The notes below the pieces were generated by a model. The model worked only from the letters and a program-made list of their open reading frames with translations. It was not told the origin of the DNA and ran no database searches. This document shows positions 2,029-18,477 of a DNA stretch of 21,295 nt, piece by piece. Origin of the DNA: a virus; the IMG/VR virus record IMGVR_UViG_3300025669_001581, positions 1 to 21,295 of that record, one strand, 5' to 3'. The translations under genes and the position numbers were made by a program. The first letter of the stretch is position 1. Each line of letters starts with the position of its first letter.

Positions 2029-2502
2029 GTGGCTATAACAAACGATCAGCTAAGAGAAATGGTAAAACACAATGAAGGATACAAAACTCAATTATATCTG
2101 GATTCCCTTGGCAATCTCACAGGTGGTCATGGCCATCATTTTAGCATCGGCAGTTTTCTTCCTGATAAAGCCATTGAAGTACTGTTCGACCATGACATTT
2201 GGGGCGCTAAGAAAGACCTTCAAGGCTTTAAGAGACTGACCGGGGTCAACGGCATCGGGCCTGTGCGTGAAGCAGTGTTGATTGATATGCTTTTTAATAT
2301 GGGGCTGGCAAGGGTTCTTAATTTTAAAAAGATGGCAAAAGCCCTCAGAAAAGCAGACTTTCCAAAAGCAGCAATTGAGATTAAGGATTCATTGTATTTT
2401 AACCAGCATGATAAGTATGATCCTGGCGGCCCTCACAGAGCCAATCGAAACGCTTGGATGATGCGGGAAGGAGTTTTATTTTGCGGTCAAGAATGTACCT
2501 GA
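2029..2502 (+). CDS. Endolysin, T4-type lysozyme (glycoside hydrolase family 24)
   Basis: Muramidase that cleaves peptidoglycan for host lysis. The start is GTG at 2029 with AGCGGAGGA about 9 nt upstream. The N-terminal catalytic pattern is E16-x8-D25-x5-T31 within EGYKTQLYLDSLGNLT then GHGHH, matching the E11/D20/T26 triad spacing of T4 lysozyme. Downstream, VREAVLIDMLFNMG and the late NRNAWMMREG match the helical core of the family. At 157 residues it is close to the T4 enzyme length. No signal peptide or SAR segment is visible, so export would need a holin, and the small membrane genes that follow are candidates. The last 22 bases overlap the next gene. The catalytic assignment is strong. 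Confidence 0.9.
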   Translation: MAITNDQLREMVKHNEGYKTQLYLDSLGNLTGGHGHHFSIGSFLPDKAIEVLFDHDIWGAKKDLQGFKRLTGVNGIGPVREAVLIDMLFNMGLARVLNFKKMAKALRKADFPKAAIEIKDSLYFNQHDKYDPGGPHRANRNAWMMREGVLFCGQECT

Positions 2503-7342: not shown

Positions 7343-7636
7343 TCAGTCACAACCATCGCATTTCATATTTTCTGCCTGATTTAAGGCGATCTTTGCACTG
7401 GATAAACTTGATGTACATATTTTAATTTGTCTTTCCTTGCGAGCAATAAAATTTCTCAATGCTTGCTTACGATCCGGGTAAGCAAATCTTTTCCTTGATG
7501 TTTTGCTTACCCATTTTTCAAACCCATATTTTTCAATCCAATATCCGCGCGGGGTTTCTCTTAATAAGTCGTAATGGCTTTCCCGTATTTCAACCCCATA
7601 AATTGATACGAAATTTGAAAATCTATAAAATTTCAT
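7343..7636 (-). CDS. Hypothetical phage protein (97 aa)
   Basis: I chose ATG 7636, 7 nt from GAGG; the ATG at 7642 is an alternative and the longer frame to 7705 runs into a hairpin region. The product starts MKFYRFSNFVSIYG and continues with ETPRGYWIEKYGFEKWVSK, an aromatic-rich segment, then a long basic helix (RKQALRNFIARKERQIKIC) and ends CDGCD. The style matches a frequent small phage protein (YGFExWVS followed by RFAY/RYAYP-type motif) with unknown function. No membrane span. Confidence 0.6.
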   Translation of the reverse strand: MKFYRFSNFVSIYGVEIRESHYDLLRETPRGYWIEKYGFEKWVSKTSRKRFAYPDRKQALRNFIARKERQIKICTSSLSSAKIALNQAENMKCDGCD

Positions 7637-7670
7637 TTTCATCCTCAATTTCTTTCTTTCTTTAAAAAAA

Positions 7671-7798
7671 TCCCCGGCTCGGCATCTCCAATTTTGCACA
7701 ACCAAAAACAGAAAACGCCTCGGCTGCTATCAAATCCTTACGTACGCGACCTTTTCGGCTAAAGATTAAAATAATAGAAAACAGCAGTGAGCCGGGGA
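7671..7798 (-). other. Structured leader: 10-bp inverted repeat with terminal T-run
   Basis: Between the genes at 7343-7636 and 7810-8373, TCCCCGGCTC (7671-7680) pairs perfectly with GAGCCGGGGA (7789-7798) across a 108-nt loop. Read leftward, the last strand is followed by TTTTTTT. Within the loop CGGCTGCT (7721-7728) can pair with AGCAG and then GCCG (7783-7794), competing with the outer stem. This resembles an attenuator or structured small RNA in the leader of the downstream gene. No convincing ORF covers it. Confidence 0.4.
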
Positions 7799-7809
7799 AA
7801 TTTGGTTTA

Positions 7810-8373
7810 TTAACGATAATATCCAGCAAGGCCCATATGATACCGACACGAATGCTTCGGGAACCCTGTGATTTTTGCCATGTCGCCATAGCTGCCCTCG
7901 AACCCATTTTTCAATTCGGACAGAACGGCTTCTTTTGCTCCATGGTGCCTGACGTTGTTCGGCCCGCCGACAGATTTTAATGGAACGCCCAAATGCTTCA
8001 TATAATTTTTTATGGTCACATAAGACTTACCGGTTATCACGCCTATTTTACGCGTGCTGCCGTGATTCTTGTACAGGTCTTTCAATAACATGGCTGGATC
8101 TCCCCAGCTTTCCCCGGATGCCTTATTGTATGCCACCATCATCTCGTTTATATTTTCATCCATGGTCGGCCAGTGGCAGTCTATACCGGCAGCATTCAAT
8201 CGGAGCAGGACTGCAGTGCGGCATATATCGCCCATTAAATACGCTATTTTACCGGCGCTCTTATATTCCTTGTATACCGCCTCAAAGAAAGACTTTTCAC
8301 CCGCAGGATAATCGGTCCCATGCTCGGCGTTGAATTCCTTTATTTTTTCAATCCAGTTGTAACCCTTTGCCAT
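7810..8373 (-). CDS. DNA-binding protein with three HTH-like units (187 aa)
   Basis: ATG 8373 has TGAGGA 8 nt upstream. An ATG at 8388 overlaps the upstream stop (ATGA) but lacks a ribosome site, so either is possible. The protein is helical and seems to hold three repeated winged-helix-size units: EAVYKEYKSAGKIAYLMGD, then LLKDLYKNHGSTRKIGVITG with KSYVTIKNYMKHLGV (a good helix-turn-helix), then VLSELKNGFEGSYGDMAKIT with a basic end. Each unit has the form helix, G-S-x-x-x-I/M turn, recognition helix. Inference: a sequence-specific regulator or a small structural DNA-binding protein. No catalytic motif is present. Confidence 0.65.
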   Translation of the reverse strand: MAKGYNWIEKIKEFNAEHGTDYPAGEKSFFEAVYKEYKSAGKIAYLMGDICRTAVLLRLNAAGIDCHWPTMDENINEMMVAYNKASGESWGDPAMLLKDLYKNHGSTRKIGVITGKSYVTIKNYMKHLGVPLKSVGGPNNVRHHGAKEAVLSELKNGFEGSYGDMAKITGFPKHSCRYHMGLAGYYR

Positions 8374-9751: not shown

Positions 9752-10405
9752 ATGACAAAAAACATCAGGCCGGTTGCTTTCGATCTTGAAACAATTGCTG
9801 ATCAATCAATCATTGAATTTTTGCCAGAGATTGAAGCTAAAAAAAATTTGAAGGATGAAGCAAAAATACAAGCGGATATATCAGATAAAACAGCAAAAAG
9901 ATTGAATGAGCTGGGTATGGACCCGCTTACAAATTTGATTTGCTGCTTTTCATGGTGCGATGGTTCGAATATCGGAAGTGTTGTATTGAAGGATGAGAGC
10001 CACGCATCTGAAAAAGAATTATTGCTACAAGCCTGGGATATTTTAGCGCAATACAATTTCTACGCAACGTTCAACGGAATATCTTTTGATGTCCGGACTC
10101 TCAATCTACATTCCATGAGAGAGCGGATACATCCAGGTAAAAAAATTGATACTAAAAAATATCAAATTGGTAATCATATGGATCTTCGGATGGTGCTTGG
10201 AAACTGGGAATCATTTGCGAAAGGGAAACTTGATTATTACCTAAAAATTTTCTTTGGTGAAGGAAAAATGGAAGGCATTGACGGAAGCCTTGTCCAGCAT
10301 TATTGGGATGTTGGGTTAGTGGATGATATTCAAAAGTATTGTGAAAAAGATGCAGAAGAGACATTCAGGCTGTATGAACTTGTGCGTGATTATTACTCAT
10401 ATTGA
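9752..10405 (+). CDS. 3'-5' exonuclease, PolB-exonuclease-like (RNase H fold)
   Basis: The ATG at 9752 has AAAGGAG upstream. The 217-residue protein has the three DEDD exonuclease motifs: Exo I FDLETI (D11, E13), Exo II FNGISFDV (D113) and Exo III YCEKDAEET (Y196, D200), a DEDDy pattern. The layout matches the predicted 3'-5' exonucleases related to the proofreading domain of PolB (PF10108-type). It should remove nucleotides from DNA 3' ends using two metal ions. As the first enzyme of the replication/recombination module it may provide proofreading in trans or trim ends for recombination. No polymerase gene is in the window. Confidence 0.85.
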   Translation: MTKNIRPVAFDLETIADQSIIEFLPEIEAKKNLKDEAKIQADISDKTAKRLNELGMDPLTNLICCFSWCDGSNIGSVVLKDESHASEKELLLQAWDILAQYNFYATFNGISFDVRTLNLHSMRERIHPGKKIDTKKYQIGNHMDLRMVLGNWESFAKGKLDYYLKIFFGEGKMEGIDGSLVQHYWDVGLVDDIQKYCEKDAEETFRLYELVRDYYSY

Positions 10406-10457
10406 TACGGCTGCCATAAATAATTATAAATGCAAAAAAATGGAAGGAGAAAAACTT

Positions 10458-11756
10458 ATGTTCAAAAAAGCTTTACCGAGAAGTAAAAAATTCAAATTGT
10501 TTTTGTACGGTCCACCAGGAGGATTCAAAACTAGAACGATGTTAAGGCTTGCGAATGTTCCAGATGGAGATCCCGAAGCTTTGGCAATTGTTGATACTGA
10601 ATTTGGTTCAGATCATTATGCCGATGAATTTAATTTTCTGCGCCTTCAAACCAATGACCCCGATGAAATATTCAACGCTACGAAAAGGTTGTTGAAAAGT
10701 CCTGGGAAAATAAAAACATTAGGGTTTGATTCTTTCAGCGTATACTATGCTAGTTTAATGGCTAAGTACGTTGACTTATATCTCAAACGAGAGATCAGCT
10801 CGAAAGGGCACAAAAAAGAGTATTACGTTTTGCAACCACGAGACTATCAGCCGATCAACAGAGAGGCCGAAAAATTCATTCGCATGCTTTTAAGTTGCGA
10901 TTTGAACGTAATTGTTACGTGCCAAAGTAAAGAACAGTGGGGCGATAATATGAAGGTCATCGGATCGACCTTTGATGGGTTTAAGCGGTTGCCATATTAT
11001 TTCGACACCTCAATCGAGGTGGAGGAAAACAAACGATATAAAAGCGGGTTTTCAGGAACGGTTAAATTAAAGGACCGGACAAACAAGTTAAAAGTTGGTG
11101 AAAAAATTCCATGGGAAAATGATCAAGCCATTTATGACTATTTGGTAAAGTCTTTCGGGCAGGATTTTTCTACCGGACCTGATACCGTTGGATATCAGGA
11201 TGATGAAGTCAAAATTCATCCAGTTGAAAAAGCTGTTTCCAGCAAAGAAGATACAAATCAGACTGCGCCCATATTTCCTCCTTTTTCGCTCATATTTCCT
11301 CCTGGCACAGAACACAAAAGCGAGCCAAAACAAGAAGAACTCAAGTCTAAGTCTGATTTTAAGAAACAAATCAATGATTCGGAAGAACCTGTCCATATGG
11401 AGCAGCTTAAAAATATCGTCAAGCTGAAAAGTGAATTAAAAATTCACAGTAAAAAAGAGTGGGCTGAGTTATTGAAGATGGAGCCTTTCAATGTTAATTC
11501 TGCTAAAGAATTTACAATTGATATGGCAAATGAGTTCATCCGGATGCTAGTATTGAAAAAAGCAGGGCTTGAATATAGTCCGGCTATTGAAGAAAAGGAA
11601 AATGTTGAAGATGCTGGAATTTCTGAAAGTGATCTTTTAAAAAAAGATGTATTTCAAGTAGTTGCTGCAAAAGATAAGGAAGAGGCTCCCGGTGATTACG
11701 ACAAACAATTGGATATTGAAGATGATGATCCAGGAGGCAACGACTTACCGTACTGA
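10458..11756 (+). CDS. RecA-like ATPase, Sak4/AAA_24-type single-strand annealing/recombinase protein with SSB-like tail
   Basis: The start ATG 10458 follows AAGGAG; upstream in-frame ATGs lack a site. Of 432 residues, about 1-255 form a RecA-type ATPase: Walker A G18-P-P-G-G-F-K-T25, IVDTEFG near 44-50, Walker B LGFDS (D91), and VTCQSKEQW as a sensor-like strand. It matches phage nucleotide-binding proteins of the Sak4/AAA_24 family, which promote ssDNA annealing with an SSB partner. Walker A has Phe where Gly is expected before the Lys, which is odd. A charged linker leads to a small helical domain (~311-370). The extreme C-terminus DIEDDDPGGNDLPY is acidic with an aromatic end, like the SSB interaction tail. 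The next genes include a DUF669-like partner. Confidence 0.8.
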   Translation: MFKKALPRSKKFKLFLYGPPGGFKTRTMLRLANVPDGDPEALAIVDTEFGSDHYADEFNFLRLQTNDPDEIFNATKRLLKSPGKIKTLGFDSFSVYYASLMAKYVDLYLKREISSKGHKKEYYVLQPRDYQPINREAEKFIRMLLSCDLNVIVTCQSKEQWGDNMKVIGSTFDGFKRLPYYFDTSIEVEENKRYKSGFSGTVKLKDRTNKLKVGEKIPWENDQAIYDYLVKSFGQDFSTGPDTVGYQDDEVKIHPVEKAVSSKEDTNQTAPIFPPFSLIFPPGTEHKSEPKQEELKSKSDFKKQINDSEEPVHMEQLKNIVKLKSELKIHSKKEWAELLKMEPFNVNSAKEFTIDMANEFIRMLVLKKAGLEYSPAIEEKENVEDAGISESDLLKKDVFQVVAAKDKEEAPGDYDKQLDIEDDDPGGNDLPY

Positions 11757-11921
11757 ATGAACCGTCTTGATTATCTTATAAATCAATTTGGGTATCCCAA
11801 GGTTTTCAAGGCAGGATTATCATTATTGGGATACCCTGGAACATGGGCAACAACCAAGATTGAAATAAACAAAATACAACAACAATTAAAACAAAGGAGA
11901 AAAGAATGGCTGATCAATTAA
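11757..11921 (+). CDS. Small hypothetical protein (54 aa)
   Basis: The ATG at 11757 immediately follows the TGA of the ATPase gene, so reinitiation is plausible although no close ribosome site is present (AGGAGG lies ~20 nt away). The end overlaps the next gene by 16 bases. The product starts MNRLDYLINQFGYPKVFKAG, then LSLLGYPGTWATTK and a basic helix QQQLKQRRKEW. The sequence looks protein-like and fills the gap exactly, but codon support is limited. Function unknown. Confidence 0.45.
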   Translation: MNRLDYLINQFGYPKVFKAGLSLLGYPGTWATTKIEINKIQQQLKQRRKEWLIN

Positions 11922-12448
11922 GTTGGGATTCTGTTGAAACAACAGAGGAAATTTCTGAAAAAGAATTCAAAAATGCTGATCAAAAATGGCCTTTGATTGG
12001 ACGGTACGCTTGCACTTGTGTTGAGAGCAAACCTAGACAAGCTGATTTGAAAGATTATTCCTGTTTTAAGGCCAATTTAAAATGGAGAATTGATAAAGTT
12101 TTTGAAATACAGGGAGAAGGCGCGACCGAGGATCAAGATGAATCATTCAACGGAAAATTCTTATATGATGATGTCATGCTTCCTCATGACCAGGAAAAAG
12201 AAGCGATCAAAAAAAGACGAATTTTTGTTGCTAAAAAAATTGGCCTCATTAAAGGAAACGCAAATTTGAACGCAAGAGCATGGGGGTCAGATGTCCTTGG
12301 AAAACGCGCCGTTCTAACTGTTGATGAGAATTCATATGTTAAAAATGGAAAGACCATTACAAACAATCAGGTGTCATTTTATGGATATGAATCAATTGAT
12401 TCGGTTGACATGAAAGAAATAGAAACCGACAATTTCGCTGACATTTAA
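11906..12448 (+). CDS. DUF669-like protein, ssDNA-binding candidate (180 aa)
   Basis: AAAGGAG lies 8 nt before ATG 11906. The protein begins MADQLSWDSVETTEE, then PLIGRYACTCVES (the opening strand after a Gly in OB-like folds), LKANLKW-type strands, NGKFLYDDVMLP, ARAWGSDVLGKRAVLTVDEN and a closing NNQVSFYGYESID. This order matches phage DUF669 proteins, which lie next to Sak4-type recombinases and are thought to bind ssDNA. The mid-region GATEDQDESF is an acidic insertion. It probably coats ssDNA and is the likely target of the acidic tail of the ATPase upstream. Family call is from pattern memory; ssDNA binding is inference. Confidence 0.65.
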   Translation: MADQLSWDSVETTEEISEKEFKNADQKWPLIGRYACTCVESKPRQADLKDYSCFKANLKWRIDKVFEIQGEGATEDQDESFNGKFLYDDVMLPHDQEKEAIKKRRIFVAKKIGLIKGNANLNARAWGSDVLGKRAVLTVDENSYVKNGKTITNNQVSFYGYESIDSVDMKEIETDNFADI

Positions 12449-12463: not shown

Positions 12464-13240
12464 ATGATTAAAAGGGCAACGCATAACAATAAAACAATTA
12501 CTTTTAGTGAAATATTGCACACATATACACTGGATGATTCTTCCCAACAATTTATTTCAGGAACTCAATTTATCGGTAAATATTTTCCCACATTTGATAA
12601 AGAAAAATGGTCCGCTTTCGTTGCTGATCGTGATGGGATAACAATCGAGCAGGTTCTTGAAAAATGGGATAAAGAGAAGGTTCGTGGTACTACTTCAGGA
12701 ACTAATGTTCATTTATATGCCGAAAAGCTTATTGAAGGAAAGCAAAACTTACCGCTTCCGTCCAGCGATAGAGAAAAAAAACTTTTTTATAAAGTAAATA
12801 TTGCCGTTGTTGCCCTTTTAAAAAATTTTAAATTTATAGAAGCTGAAAAAATTGTTTTTAGTCCAAATTTAGGCGTTGCCGGAACTATTGATTTGCTGAT
12901 GTTTGATCCGGCAACGTTAACTGTAATTATATTAGATTGGAAACAAAACAAGAAAATATCAAAAGTTAATAATTATGATTCTGCTTTATACCCGATAGAT
13001 CATCTTGAGGACACAGATTTAAATAAATACGCTATGCAATTGAATTTATACCAACGAATTTTAGAGGAAGAAAGCTATTTTCCAGGAGCAACTGGAGGAT
13101 TCAAGCGAGTATTGGTTCATCTTACATCAGATTATAGCATAAAGAATAAAATTATTAAATTACCTGATATGCAAGTAGAAATTAATAATATGCTTAAAAA
13201 TTATTTTTATAAAGAAAGTATAACGGCATGGAAGAAATAG
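12464..13240 (+). CDS. PD-(D/E)XK superfamily nuclease, RecB/Cas4-like
   Basis: The 258-residue product has the ordered motifs of RecB-type exonucleases: GTTSGTNVHLYAEKLI (H83, E87), VAGTIDLLMF (D143), ILDWKQ (D158, K160: the D-x-K of the core) and MQLNLYQRIL (Q192-x3-Y196, the QxxxY motif). Such enzymes degrade dsDNA ends to make ssDNA for annealing proteins, here the Sak4-like ATPase. The start ATG 12464 has a moderate site (AAAGG). The end overlaps the RecD2 N-terminal gene by 13 bases, so the nuclease and helicase parts are translationally linked, reminiscent of a RecBCD/AddAB-like division of labour. There is no Cys cluster, so an Fe-S Cas4 is excluded. Confidence 0.85.
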   Translation: MIKRATHNNKTITFSEILHTYTLDDSSQQFISGTQFIGKYFPTFDKEKWSAFVADRDGITIEQVLEKWDKEKVRGTTSGTNVHLYAEKLIEGKQNLPLPSSDREKKLFYKVNIAVVALLKNFKFIEAEKIVFSPNLGVAGTIDLLMFDPATLTVIILDWKQNKKISKVNNYDSALYPIDHLEDTDLNKYAMQLNLYQRILEEESYFPGATGGFKRVLVHLTSDYSIKNKIIKLPDMQVEINNMLKNYFYKESITAWKK

Positions 13241-14193
13241 GAGCTTTAAACAGAATTATTTTTTCAAATCAAAAGAATTATTTTTTAATTGGTGCGTTTA
13301 ATAGAGAAGTAGATTTTGGATATGAATCGTTTACGGCTGTAGGCTCCATGGTAGATCCCCTTGTCGGAATTGAATATAGGCTACAAGGGGAATGGATTGA
13401 TAATCCAAAGTTTGGTAAGCAATTCAAATTTTCAGCCTATGAAGCTATGGAGCCTGAAGATACAGCCGGAATTTGTAAATATCTCGTGATGACCTGCAAA
13501 GGTATCGGGCCTTCAACAGCAAATAAAATTATGTATGAATATGATGTTAACGCCATTGAAATATTAAAAAAAAATCCTGATAAAGTATCAAAGGAAATAA
13601 AAGGAATTACAATTGAACGGGCAAAAGAGATCCAGCATGATTTAATGCAAAAAGAAGAAATGGAAAAAACGATTATTTCTCTTGAAAAAATATTTTACAA
13701 AATAAAAGGGTTGAGAAAGGATCTTTCCATCCTATGCATAAAATTTTGGGGGCATATGGCAATCGGTTTAATTAAAAAAAATCCTTATATCTTAACTGAT
13801 ATAAAAGGAGTTGGATTTTTAACTGCTGACCAGATAGCCCAAACGTTGGGAATAGCGCCTGATGATATTTTTAGATTGAAAGCTGGCATACAATACGGAA
13901 TTGAACAGGAAACCAGGACTGGGCATGTTTGGGTTCAATTAGAAAACTTGCAAGAGGTCGTAACAAAATTATTGAAAATCAATTTAACATTTTTTAATGC
14001 TATCGAAGAAATGATTTTTGATAAAATATTGGTAAAAAAAGAACTTTCATCAAAAATTTTTTATAGCTTGGATAAATTAGATAAAAACGAAACCATTATA
14101 TCCGAAAAGGTGATTTTATGCATACGATACCAATTGCAGACGGAGGGGATAGTGATACCGAAAATAAACAACAGGATGATATCAGTGGAATAA
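13228..14193 (+). CDS. RecD2 helicase N-terminal part (OB and HhH domains), separate gene
   Basis: The 321 residues match the region in front of the motor of RecD2 helicases. An OB-like start (FTAVGSMVDPLVGIEYRLQG, then EW-x-x-NPKFGKQFKF, residues ~35-68) is followed by helix-hairpin-helix units (CKGIGPSTANKI ~90-101; IKGITIERAKEI ~124-135) and NPYILTDIKGVGFLTADQIA (~185-204), the classical NPY...GigF..aD segment. It then continues to SEKVILCIRYQLQ. The helicase motor itself follows in another frame from 14118, so the protein as read lacks ATPase motifs. Start ATG 13228 overlaps the nuclease gene by 13 bases. Split at a domain boundary: natural fission, programmed frameshift or error remain possible. 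Confidence 0.85.
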   Translation: MEEIGALNRIIFSNQKNYFLIGAFNREVDFGYESFTAVGSMVDPLVGIEYRLQGEWIDNPKFGKQFKFSAYEAMEPEDTAGICKYLVMTCKGIGPSTANKIMYEYDVNAIEILKKNPDKVSKEIKGITIERAKEIQHDLMQKEEMEKTIISLEKIFYKIKGLRKDLSILCIKFWGHMAIGLIKKNPYILTDIKGVGFLTADQIAQTLGIAPDDIFRLKAGIQYGIEQETRTGHVWVQLENLQEVVTKLLKINLTFFNAIEEMIFDKILVKKELSSKIFYSLDKLDKNETIISEKVILCIRYQLQTEGIVIPKINNRMISVE

Positions 14194-15491
14194 TCCTTAC
14201 GGATCAACAACAAGATTCCGTTGAAATGGTTTTAAATAATCAACTATCTATTTTAACCGGGGGTCCGGGGACTGGAAAAACAACCACTATTAAAGAAATT
14301 ATCAAGCAAGCAAAATCAAGAGGATTGATTATAGAACTTTGCGCGCCTACCGGAAAAGCTGCCAAGCGCATGATGGAAGCAACAGGTGGGTTTGCGTGTA
14401 CAATTCATAAGCTCATGGAGCCGCAAGTTGGTGATAATGGTATATTCTATTTTACAAAAAATGAAATCAACCAAATAAAAACAGGGTTAGTAATTGTTGA
14501 TGAAGTCAGCATGGTAACCAATAATTTAATGGCTGATTTTTTAAAAGCTATAAACATAAAAACAAAAATATTGCTGGTAGGAGATAAAGGGCAATTACCA
14601 AGTGTGGGGCCTGGAGCAGTATTAAGAGATTTATTAAAAACAGGCATAATACCGACTATAAATCTTACAAAAATACACAGGTCAGCCGGTGACATCGCTT
14701 TTGCATGCCAGAAAATAGAGCATGGAAAGGTTTATAAACCTTCTGATAGTCTAGATTTAGACGCAATACCTCCAAAAAATTTACGTCATATTGAGGTTTC
14801 TACGCCAGAGGCTATCCAGTCTGTTATCAAAAAATTGGTTTCTGAAAATCTTTCAGGACGCGGATATGATCCCACCTGGGACGTTCAAATAATTTCTCCA
14901 ATGAACTCCAGAACAAATTTAAGCTGCCAGGATTTAAATTTTGAAATGCAAAAAATATTGAATCATGATGCAAAAAAAATGAATGGAACATCTTTTTGCA
15001 TAGCAGATAAAGTGATCAATACAAAAAATAAAATTATGCCTGCGGTTCATAATAAAGATGAATTAATTGTAAACGGAGATATCGGATATATTATTATGGA
15101 CCCCAAGGCAGAATCAAAAGAACATTATTTTATAAAATCAAGAACATTATGTGTGAATTTCATAAATCCAGATAGACAAGTTTATGTTGAGCGCCGGGCG
15201 AACAGCCTTTTGCACGCCTACGCAATCACTTGTCATCGCATGCAAGGGTCAGAGGCCCCAGTGATTGTTATCCCGGTTCATAACACCTTCGGGCCATTTG
15301 TAAATAGATCATGGATTTATACCGCTATCAGCCGGGCGAAAGAAATTTGCATAACGGTGGGAAGGTTTAAGGCCATCGAATCCGCTATTCACAGGATAGA
15401 TTCACAAAAAAGAAAAACATTATTAACAGAAAAGATTATGTCTATGTATAAGGAAGATTCTTTTCTTGAATTGCAATTGCAATGCATTTGA
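14118..15491 (+). CDS. RecD2-type SF1B helicase motor domain, separate gene
   Basis: This 457-residue product carries the complete set of SF1B motifs: Q motif LTDQQQ (~28-32), Walker A GGPGTGKTT (48-56), Ia APTGKAAKRM (76-85), II VDEVS (127-131), III GDKGQLPSVGPG (155-166), V CHRMQGSEAP (~371-380) and VI YTAISRAK (~401-408). It is a 5'-3' DNA helicase motor. ATG 14118 has its own AAGGTG at suitable distance and lies 76 bases inside the preceding gene, in the -1 frame. The first ~27 residues are linker-like (IADGGDSDTENKQQDD), so the two products together equal one RecD2 of ~750 residues. The next gene, an ERCC4 nuclease, follows after 10 nt. Confidence 0.9.
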   Translation: MHTIPIADGGDSDTENKQQDDISGIILTDQQQDSVEMVLNNQLSILTGGPGTGKTTTIKEIIKQAKSRGLIIELCAPTGKAAKRMMEATGGFACTIHKLMEPQVGDNGIFYFTKNEINQIKTGLVIVDEVSMVTNNLMADFLKAINIKTKILLVGDKGQLPSVGPGAVLRDLLKTGIIPTINLTKIHRSAGDIAFACQKIEHGKVYKPSDSLDLDAIPPKNLRHIEVSTPEAIQSVIKKLVSENLSGRGYDPTWDVQIISPMNSRTNLSCQDLNFEMQKILNHDAKKMNGTSFCIADKVINTKNKIMPAVHNKDELIVNGDIGYIIMDPKAESKEHYFIKSRTLCVNFINPDRQVYVERRANSLLHAYAITCHRMQGSEAPVIVIPVHNTFGPFVNRSWIYTAISRAKEICITVGRFKAIESAIHRIDSQKRKTLLTEKIMSMYKEDSFLELQLQCI

Positions 15492-15501
15492 GGATATTTT
15501 A

Positions 15502-15948
15502 ATGAAAAATTTTACAATCATTGTTGATACCAGGGAACAAAAACCTTTTTTATTCAAAGGAATAGATCCTCAACCAAAAATTATTATTAAAAAATTGGAT
15601 ACTGGAGATTACAGCCTTGAAGGATATTCAGATCAAATTTGCGTCGAGCGTAAATCAGTTATTGATTTATTTGGTTCATGCGGATCAGGCCGGGAAAGGT
15701 TTCAGCGCGAAATAGAACGCATGGGGAAATTCGAATATGCAGCTATAGTATGTGAAGGCGATTGGCAACAAATCTTAAGAAGTTCGCAAGAGTATACCAT
15801 GATGCTACCAAAATCAATATTTGCTTCTATTGTTGCATGGGAGCAACGATACAATATTTATTTCTGGCCTTGTGTAAACCGGAAAATGGCTGAAAAAACA
15901 ACATATAGGATTCTCGAAAGATATTATCGGGATAGAAGTTTAATATAA
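15502..15948 (+). CDS. ERCC4 (XPF/MUS81-type) nuclease domain protein
   Basis: Start ATG 15502 has GAGG about 9 nt upstream; a longer frame from 15466 overlaps the helicase end. The 148-residue protein shows DTREQKPF (D9, R11, E12), TGDYSLEGY (D36) and ICVERKSVIDLFGS (E49-R50-K51, D55), the signature of ERCC4-fold nucleases, with ERFQREIERM following. In eukaryotic and archaeal relatives this domain cuts branched or flapped DNA. Alone and without an HhH tail here, it may resolve recombination or replication branches, perhaps with the HhH-bearing RecD2 part. Catalytic residues appear intact. Confidence 0.88.
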   Translation: MKNFTIIVDTREQKPFLFKGIDPQPKIIIKKLDTGDYSLEGYSDQICVERKSVIDLFGSCGSGRERFQREIERMGKFEYAAIVCEGDWQQILRSSQEYTMMLPKSIFASIVAWEQRYNIYFWPCVNRKMAEKTTYRILERYYRDRSLI

Positions 15949-16197: not shown

Positions 16198-18477
16198 ATG
16201 ATGCAAAAACCACAAACAATTGATCAGATAAAACAAGCAGTACTTTCCCAAATAAATATCATTTCAGAATATCAAGAAATGGGTGTTCGATTAGCAGGTT
16301 CAGGTGCCCCAAATGCCCGTGGATGGGTATCGGTATATTCTCCATACAAAACTGAGAAGAAGCCATCTTGCGGTATATACCTTGGCAACACCAATACATA
16401 CAGGGGATATCTTGTAGCTTTCAATAGGGCTGGATCATCTGGAAAAATGGTATGGACGTCAAGTCTATTTGATTCTGCCCGTGATTTGCATCCCCAATTG
16501 TCAGGATGTGATTTCATTGAGATATTGGAATTTTATGCCAAGAAATTAAACATAGATTTTTCTGCAAAAAAAATTAAGAAAAATAGTAAATCCAAAAAAA
16601 CAGGAATTATAGAATCCACTTATGATTATCGTGATGAAAAAGGAAAATTGATATTTCAAGCGGTTCGCTTTAGAGATCCAAAGTCTTTTAAGCAACGACA
16701 ACCGGCATCGAGTGATGAATCAGATGATAAATGGATATGGAATCTTCAAGACATCGAAATCATTCCATATAATTTGCAAGAGATTATCAAGCCTGAAAAT
16801 GAAATTATCTATATCGTTGAAGGTGAAAAAGATGTTGATAATTTAAAAGCAATTGGCATCACGGCTACATGCTGCCCTATGGGGGCCGGGAAATGGTGGC
16901 CGAATGTAAATAAATATTTTGAAGGTAAACACGTTATAGCTATTCCGGATAATGATATTCCAGGACAAGATCATGCTGAAAGAGTTTACCGGGAGCTTTC
17001 GCCAGTTGCACAATCGATTAAAATTATACAGCTTCCCGAGCTTCCAGAAAAAGGGGATGTGTCCGACTGGTTAGAATCAGGTGGGCAGATGGATGATTTA
17101 ATTGCACTTGTTAATCAATCACCTGAGAAAAAGCAATATGATGATGAAGTATCGCTATTGAACAAAAAACATATTGCAATTATGATTGCCGGTAAATTTG
17201 TAGTCATGAATGAAGAAATAAACCCGGTATCTAAAAGAATAGAAACCACATTTTCATCTGTAAACGATTTCCGCAACAGATATTTAAATCGCATGGTTCT
17301 AAATCCTAAGTTTGGTGAATATGGTCAAAAGAAAGAAATTACAGCCGCTGAATTATGGTTAAAATCAATCAATAGACGTGAATGTGATCAAATTGTTTTT
17401 GATCCTGACGATAATAACAAAGGATTGTATTCAAATTGTTATAACCTATGGCGCGGATTGGCTACACAATCGATTAAAGGTGATTGGTCCTTATACCGGG
17501 ATCATATTTTTTCAAATATCGCCAGCGGCAACCAGAGCCATTATAATTGGATTATTTCATGGATGGCGCGAATTGTTCAAAATCCTGGTGGAAAACGTCC
17601 TGGAACTTCAATTGTGTTAAGGGGAAAACAGGGGACCGGAAAAGGAGTGTTTCTTACAAATTTTGGTAAACTTTTTGGTAATCATTTTTTACATATTAAT
17701 AACCAGTCGCAACTTGTTGGAAGATTTAATAATCTTTTTAAAGATGCCTTGTTTGTATTTGTCGATGAAGGGTTCTGGGCTGGTGATAAATCAGTCGAAG
17801 GGATTGTAAGGGGGATGATCACAGAAGATATTTTGATTGTAGAGCCAAAAGGAAAAGATTCATTCATGGTAAAAAATCATATCAATCTAGCCATGGCCTC
17901 CAATAACGAATGGGTCGTTCCAGCCGGTATGGAAGAAAGACGTTTTTTTGTAATTGATGTTGCTGATAATTGCATGCAAAATATCTCATATTTTCAAAAA
18001 ATATCAAAACAAATGAATAACGGAGGGCATGAAGCACTTCTTTACGACTTGTTGCGTTGGAATTATGAAAATGAAGCTGATATAAAAAAAGTTCCTCGCA
18101 CTTCTGCATTATTTGATCAGATCCTTTCATCAATGAATGACGTTCAAAAATTTTGGTATGAAAAAATAAGAGATATGAAAGTATCTAAAAAAAATAATGA
18201 TTGGGATGGTGAGATTTATTGTGCTGAATTATATAATGATTATGTTGAACATTCTAAAATGTTAGGATTTAAAAACATTAGGATAGATAGACAGTTTGGG
18301 AAAGCGTTAAGACAGCTTTGTCCATCCTTGCGTAGGCGAAGAAAAACAATGGATATAAGCGGTAAACAGGAATGGTACTATATTATTCCTGATTTTGCAG
18401 AATGTGTTTATCATTTTGAAAAAGCAGTTGAAATGGAAATGGATTGGGATCGTGATGATGTTTACGATGGACGATAA
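16198..18477 (+). CDS. Primase-helicase: Toprim primase fused to DUF5906/SF3-like ATPase (759 aa)
   Basis: The N-terminus (~20-110) has the primase zinc-domain layout (SVYSPYKTEKKPSCGIYL) but lacks the zinc Cys/His, so it is degenerate. The Toprim domain follows: VEGEKD (E208) and PDNDIPGQD (D251, D253), then KGDVSDWL. From ~330 onward comes a DUF5906-type phage ATPase: Walker A G476-K-Q-G-T-G-K482-G, Walker B VFVDE (D523-E524), then LAMASNNEWVVPAG (~560) and ERRFFVIDV with an arginine finger-like RR. The C-terminus is basic and wHTH-like. It should lay primers and unwind DNA at the phage origin. The start is ATG 16198 or 16201; the site is weak. It is the last gene of the replication block and is followed by an AT-rich non-coding region. 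Confidence 0.88.
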   Translation: MMQKPQTIDQIKQAVLSQINIISEYQEMGVRLAGSGAPNARGWVSVYSPYKTEKKPSCGIYLGNTNTYRGYLVAFNRAGSSGKMVWTSSLFDSARDLHPQLSGCDFIEILEFYAKKLNIDFSAKKIKKNSKSKKTGIIESTYDYRDEKGKLIFQAVRFRDPKSFKQRQPASSDESDDKWIWNLQDIEIIPYNLQEIIKPENEIIYIVEGEKDVDNLKAIGITATCCPMGAGKWWPNVNKYFEGKHVIAIPDNDIPGQDHAERVYRELSPVAQSIKIIQLPELPEKGDVSDWLESGGQMDDLIALVNQSPEKKQYDDEVSLLNKKHIAIMIAGKFVVMNEEINPVSKRIETTFSSVNDFRNRYLNRMVLNPKFGEYGQKKEITAAELWLKSINRRECDQIVFDPDDNNKGLYSNCYNLWRGLATQSIKGDWSLYRDHIFSNIASGNQSHYNWIISWMARIVQNPGGKRPGTSIVLRGKQGTGKGVFLTNFGKLFGNHFLHINNQSQLVGRFNNLFKDALFVFVDEGFWAGDKSVEGIVRGMITEDILIVEPKGKDSFMVKNHINLAMASNNEWVVPAGMEERRFFVIDVADNCMQNISYFQKISKQMNNGGHEALLYDLLRWNYENEADIKKVPRTSALFDQILSSMNDVQKFWYEKIRDMKVSKKNNDWDGEIYCAELYNDYVEHSKMLGFKNIRIDRQFGKALRQLCPSLRRRRKTMDISGKQEWYYIIPDFAECVYHFEKAVEMEMDWDRDDVYDGR

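Follow-up and report, generated by a model that had tools for sequence, protein, structure and literature searches.

Gene content of the window

The window, i.e. the entire stretch of DNA analysed here, is the 21,295-nt (21.3-kb) IMG/VR virus record IMGVR_UViG_3300025669_001581 (positions 1 to 21,295). Its genes include, in this order, those for a PolB-type exonuclease, an AAA_24 ATPase, an SSB-like protein, a PDDEXK nuclease, the N-terminal part of a RecD2 helicase (RecD2-N), the corresponding motor, an ERCC4-type nuclease and a primase (Table 1). The AAA_24 family includes Sak4-type annealing ATPases, and the true start of its member in the window is probably located downstream of 10323. Residues D143, D158 and K160 of the PDDEXK nuclease are invariant in its homologues. 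The lysozyme-like protein (PF00959) is consistent with a tailed phage.

Table 1 Features of the window
Feature	Coordinates	Strand	Remarks
Phage lysozyme-like protein	2029-2502		PF00959
PolB-type 3'-5' exonuclease	9752..10405	+	PF10108 3e-18
AAA_24 (Sak4-like) ATPase	10323..11756	+	PF13479 1.6e-6; phrog_1366
SSB-like protein	11906..12448	+	weak match to two phage SSB families, each via single homologues among 12; synteny
PDDEXK nuclease	12464..13240	+	phrog_298 2.5e-29; overlaps RecD2-N start by 13 bases
RecD2-N (OB fold plus helix-hairpin-helix)	13228..14193	+	separate 321-aa protein; ATG to TAA
AAGGTG, Shine-Dalgarno-like site of motor gene	14107..14112	+	5 bases ahead of ATG at 14118
Two-frame overlap (76 bases)	14118..14193	+	RecD2-N C-terminal tail and motor N-terminal extension; without counterpart in relatives
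RecD2 SF1B motor	14118..15491	+	separate 457-aa protein; ATG to TGA
ERCC4-type nuclease	15502..15948	+	PF02732 5e-14, phrog_3490; directly downstream of motor; syntenic
Primase/helicase	16198..18477	+	phrog_1829 3e-41, DUF5906

An earlier sequence-only reading had described two overlapping genes in different frames which together make up a full-length RecD2. Both ORFs were confirmed, with the motor ORF in frame -1 relative to that of RecD2-N, and their products jointly span one RecD2 in the proper order: RecD2-N matches positions 1-290 of TIGR01448 (191 bits) and the motor protein positions 305-712 (2e-112, 376 bits). The N-terminal OB and HHH_RecD2 region characteristic of the family is present in RecD2-N, with matches to Pfam HHH_RecD2 (1e-28) and OB_YrrC (3e-16) that both exceed the cut-off. 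The motor protein possesses the SF1B motor with RecD2-type motifs and the SH3 insertion, as evident from matches to Pfam AAA_30 and UvrD_C_2, to SH3_13 (2e-8, below the Pfam cut-off) and to Deinococcus radiodurans RecD2 (3e1s, 8e-42), and from intact versions of all SF1B motifs (GGPGTGKT, DEVSM, GDKGQLPSVG, HRMQGSE and YTAISRAK). Since neither ORF reaches the 500-bit equivalog cut-off of TIGR01448, which refers to both regions in one chain, the RecD2 of the window is to be regarded as a two-gene form rather than as a standard member. At the sequence level it is confirmed as a predicted bacterial-virus helicase carried as two closely packed genes, one for the DNA-binding part and one for the motor part. 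Domain order (OB, HhH, helical region, SF1B motor with SH3) and motifs are shared with known RecD2 proteins (TIGR01448; YrrC of Bacillus subtilis, RecD2 of D. radiodurans), and the motor is homologous to 3e1s/3gp8; the known cellular form, however, is a single chain of ~730 aa, whereas that of the window consists of two proteins cut in the linker.

An AlphaFold2 model of RecD2-N (12 sequences; pLDDT 87.4) predicts a confident fold for this protein alone, composed of an OB fold (residues 2-73), helical hairpins, a last helix (282-305) and a disordered end, with the last 8 residues at a pLDDT under 50. Structural matches were obtained to RecD2 (3gp8, Z 13.8) and to the OB folds of SSB/PriB (Z about 10). 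RuvA, likewise composed of OB plus HhH and retrieved by Foldseek with a low TM-score, was rejected as a relative and taken to share domain types only. In the fused relative L174 (loci are designated by L numbers), the counterpart of this last helix spans residues 267-285, a coil occupies 286-300 and the first motor helix extends over 301-310. Judged by profile position, this linker coil contains the end of the first and the start of the second gene in all split cases except L003, and nearly all breaks are situated in a single loop between N-terminal region and motor. The break had been assigned to a domain boundary before, and its position between the long helix and the first motor helix bears this out.

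Distribution of the split and anatomy of the junctions

When the motor, RecD2-N or primase served as a single query protein, scans of viral contigs yielded nothing, while alignment-based scans did find relatives. The motor alignment A2 retrieved 80 viral loci and the closer alignment A3 also 80, many of them identical with the A2 set, as well as 31 loci in bacterial genomes; alignment A1 was dropped as a query due to excessive divergence. The single-frame fused form was found at 139 out of 199 motor-bearing loci. Removal of near-copies and unclear cases left 127 representatives, 99 of them fused and 28 split, a proportion that is no estimate of prevalence because the representatives were picked by similarity to the window.

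The closest relatives are all split (L091, 54-56 %; L093, L095, L170-L172 and others) and broken at the same place, an observation far beyond chance. In a tree of 70 motors, that of the window branches first within a clade of 13 members (support 100/98), all of them split and all with both the motor and the N-terminal gene (L015 and L098 are contig fragments). A second all-split clade (9 members, support 96/89) likewise retained both halves throughout (9/9), and single split genes are scattered elsewhere in the tree (L100, L141, L049, L131, L073 and L003). Parsimony required 8 unpolarised changes on the motor tree, at least 5 of which are forced by well-supported branches; placement of all split genes in one clade was rejected (p 9e-59). 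The tree of the N-terminal halves returned the same clades, with L100 joining that of the window. These topologies indicate that the RecD2 split arose more than once, and the wide spread of the fused form, including cellular RecD2, suggests that the latter is ancestral.

Members of the split clade originate from separate samples and from bacterial metagenome-assembled genomes (MAGs) named Desulfobacterium, Desulfobacteraceae and Deltaproteobacteria, and the host of the window virus is probably a relative of Desulfobacterium. Among 291 genomes of the class of these MAGs, 3 contained a split N-terminal gene of the clade type, and this survey also provided a further clade member (G092, i.e. L225). 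Ordinary fused RecD2 genes were additionally present in two of the genomes bearing split-clade genes. The gene order AAA_24, SSB-like, RecD2 and ERCC4 is common to split and fused relatives (fused: L102, L107, L112, L177 and L178). The PDDEXK gene separates RecD2-N from the SSB-like gene in the window, L093-L096, L099, L109, L171, L172 and L225, adjoins RecD2-N in L170 and is absent in L091; beside fused relatives it was not found in any case.

In the window, the two ORFs overlap by exactly 76 bases, and the motor gene has its own AAGGTG-ATG start, both as previously read from the sequence. The motor frame opens only at 14085, with 109 bases common to both open frames. The 76-base overlap comes from a single record and is the longest in the clade, where it is unusual: in the other 12 members, the two genes overlap by 1-14 bases, lie a few bases apart or flank an inserted ORF. 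Overlaps of the type ATGA or TTGA occur in L091, L172, L098, L015 and L093, those of L091, L172 and L093 comprising 4 bases with motor homology beginning at once. TAATG junctions are found in L171 and L109, overlaps of 13-14 bases in L095 and L099, and short gaps in L096, L094 and the extra member G092. Most motor starts of the relatives are equipped with ribosome-binding sites comparable to AAGGTG. In L170, the junction of RecD2-N and motor is precisely occupied by a 214-aa ORF (7354-7998), preceded by an ATGA and followed by a GTGA overlap; this ORF has no Pfam or NCBIfam match, so the designation HNH-like refers to sequence appearance only. Outside the clade, the halves are up to 3 kb apart (L141) or on opposite strands (L144), and tight coupling is therefore not required everywhere, as these few other lineages illustrate.

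The N-terminal half showed no sign of relaxed constraint in split genes when pairs of equal motor identity were considered. At 45-50 % motor identity, similarity of the N-terminal half was 0.382 in the clade of the window, 0.346 in the second clade and 0.335 in fused enzymes; at 50-55 % the respective values were 0.404, 0.419 and 0.374, the pairs being non-independent and the values hence a comparison rather than a formal test. Conservation to the same degree as in fused enzymes argues for a RecD2-N that still works.

A presumptive two-subunit RecD2

The N-terminal region of B. subtilis RecD2 (~280 aa) is described as uncharacterised, with a proposed role in binding of the second strand at forks and in strand switching (PMC12143592). 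D. radiodurans RecD2 devoid of its first 150 residues is active (PMC3757182, PMC12143592), and much of RecD2 biochemistry was performed with this construct (PMC3757182). Based on this proposed second-strand role and the activity of the truncated enzyme, we propose that the halves rejoin non-covalently. The best explanation, to which we assign a probability of roughly 0.7, is an ancient and retained fission of a phage RecD2, the halves of which are translated separately and cooperate, most likely as two subunits of one enzyme joined non-covalently. An ancestral single gene would have been cut in the loop between OB/HhH region and motor. Gene anatomy suggests a common message from which each half is translated on its own; for the motor gene, the ribosome-binding site located within the end of the RecD2-N gene would serve for re-initiation or coupling. 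Binding of the two products to each other, or joint action as one enzyme, is plausible: movement of the motor along one strand in the 5'-3' direction would be accompanied by binding of the other strand, or of the junction, by the OB/HhH subunit. Such a RecD2 may supply unwinding to a phage recombination/end-processing module composed of the Sak4-like ATPase, the SSB-like protein and the PDDEXK and ERCC4 nucleases.

Precedents are phage genes-in-pieces, namely NrdA of Aeh1, gene 43A/43B of Aeromonas phage 25/44RR and the T4 topoisomerase; the parts of split phage NrdA and DNA polymerase reassemble (PMC2988022), and a non-covalent RecD2 is proposed by analogy. These cases share with RecD2-N and motor, which are separate, intact and conserved ORFs, the division of a phage DNA-metabolism gene into parts with separate (for RecD2 presumed) translation and, in some instances, an inserted homing endonuclease reminiscent of the HNH-like ORF of L170. 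RecD2 differs in being split repeatedly at one domain boundary, usually without insert, and in a joint function that we infer. While phage gene splitting as such is known, neither a split RecD2 nor its repeated occurrence at one linker with clade-wide retention was encountered in searches of openly accessible papers.

The preceding reading had favoured gene fission over random error and had named a single fused gene in all relatives as the contrary outcome; the clade of the window is wholly split (13/13 members, separate samples and MAGs), and fission is strongly supported. An ordinary single-gene RecD2 disrupted by faulty assembly or sequencing, or by a frameshift mutation of recent date, is a practically negligible explanation, even if a change of one base would suffice to join the frames, the window is represented by a single metagenomic record and the fused enzyme is the common form. 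Against it stand independent records split at the same place in other samples and bacterial MAGs, the motor's own ribosome-binding site, and junctions that vary in sequence and length among relatives like those of real gene pairs. Since the same split is kept across relatives and arose repeatedly, it is considered real biology; judged from these comparisons, the split of the window reflects neither misassembly nor gene decay. Programmed -1 frameshifting yielding a fused RecD2 besides the separate products, as had been suggested, is hardly tenable. The motor frame is indeed -1, the open frames share 109 bases and AAAG at 14106 could in principle slip, but none of 17 junctions contained a slippery heptamer (X_XXY_YYZ), 4 of the 13 clade members have a relative frame of +1, some gene pairs are non-overlapping or on opposite strands, and a -1 frame simply follows from ATGA or TAATG coupling.

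More weight, albeit at rather low probability, is given to halves that no longer cooperate, the motor acting as a lone Dda-like helicase and the OB/HhH protein as an independent DNA binder, perhaps as a partner of the upstream nuclease. T4 Dda is an SF1B motor of similar size (439 residues resolved) that works as one chain and matches a fused RecD2 relative in structure; it is not known to have an OB/HhH region or a partner gene. Compatible with independence are also the remote or opposite-strand halves of L141 and L144 and the equally tight packing of RecD2-N against nuclease and motor genes. The motor of the window is, however, nearer to RecD2 than to Dda, both halves were kept together in every member of the two split clades, their trees agree, RecD2-N has maintained the rate, relative to that of the motor, seen in fused enzymes, and the insert of L170 left both halves flanking it with coupled junctions. 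It is unlikely that RecD2-N, motor and PDDEXK nuclease constitute one RecBCD-like phage end-processing machine built from RecD2 parts, in which the freed OB/HhH subunit would bridge nuclease and motor. In the window, a nuclease and a RecD-family motor are encoded side by side as in RecBCD/AddAB, and RecD joins its complex via its N-terminal domain (PMC12143592); the nuclease of the window, however, is a small separate PDDEXK protein, and neither a RecB-type motor nor RecC was seen in the window.

The split RecD2 offers a natural test for the role of the poorly understood first part. Since N-terminal region and motor became separated in phages on several occasions, both being retained, a naturally free-standing motor is available for assays in which its partner is either added or left out. 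The recurrence of fission at a single loop further suggests that a covalent connection of the two is dispensable.

Other interrupted RecD2 loci

KX853510, annotated with recD2_1 and recD2_2, does not represent the same split, as its break is located earlier (model position 235 of 292). L144 was rejected as a case of a partnerless motor because its contig encodes RecD2-N at another site, on the opposite strand. L221 (G146:C242), from a bacterial genome bin, is a RecD2 gene in overlapping frames with the break at the same domain boundary, which may be cellular, viral or an error. Breaks with overlapping frames also affect two further RecD2 genes of the class surveyed (L224, G195:C1; L223, G291:C281); the break of L224 lies inside the motor and resembles error or decay more closely. 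In L100 (7485-9272; identical with L016), two small ORFs separate the RecD2 halves and the motor frame is broken near its start. In L141 (5604-7977; IMGVR_UViG_3300028840_001720; also L139), the RecD2 halves are separated by a CRISPR-like array with 14 copies of GTTGCAGCGAACGAATGATTGGTTTGGGATTGTGAG at a spacing of 71-75. This array adjoins a 381-aa ORF and a 120-aa CxxC ORF, both devoid of a convincing family match, and together they possibly form a small phage-borne type V system.
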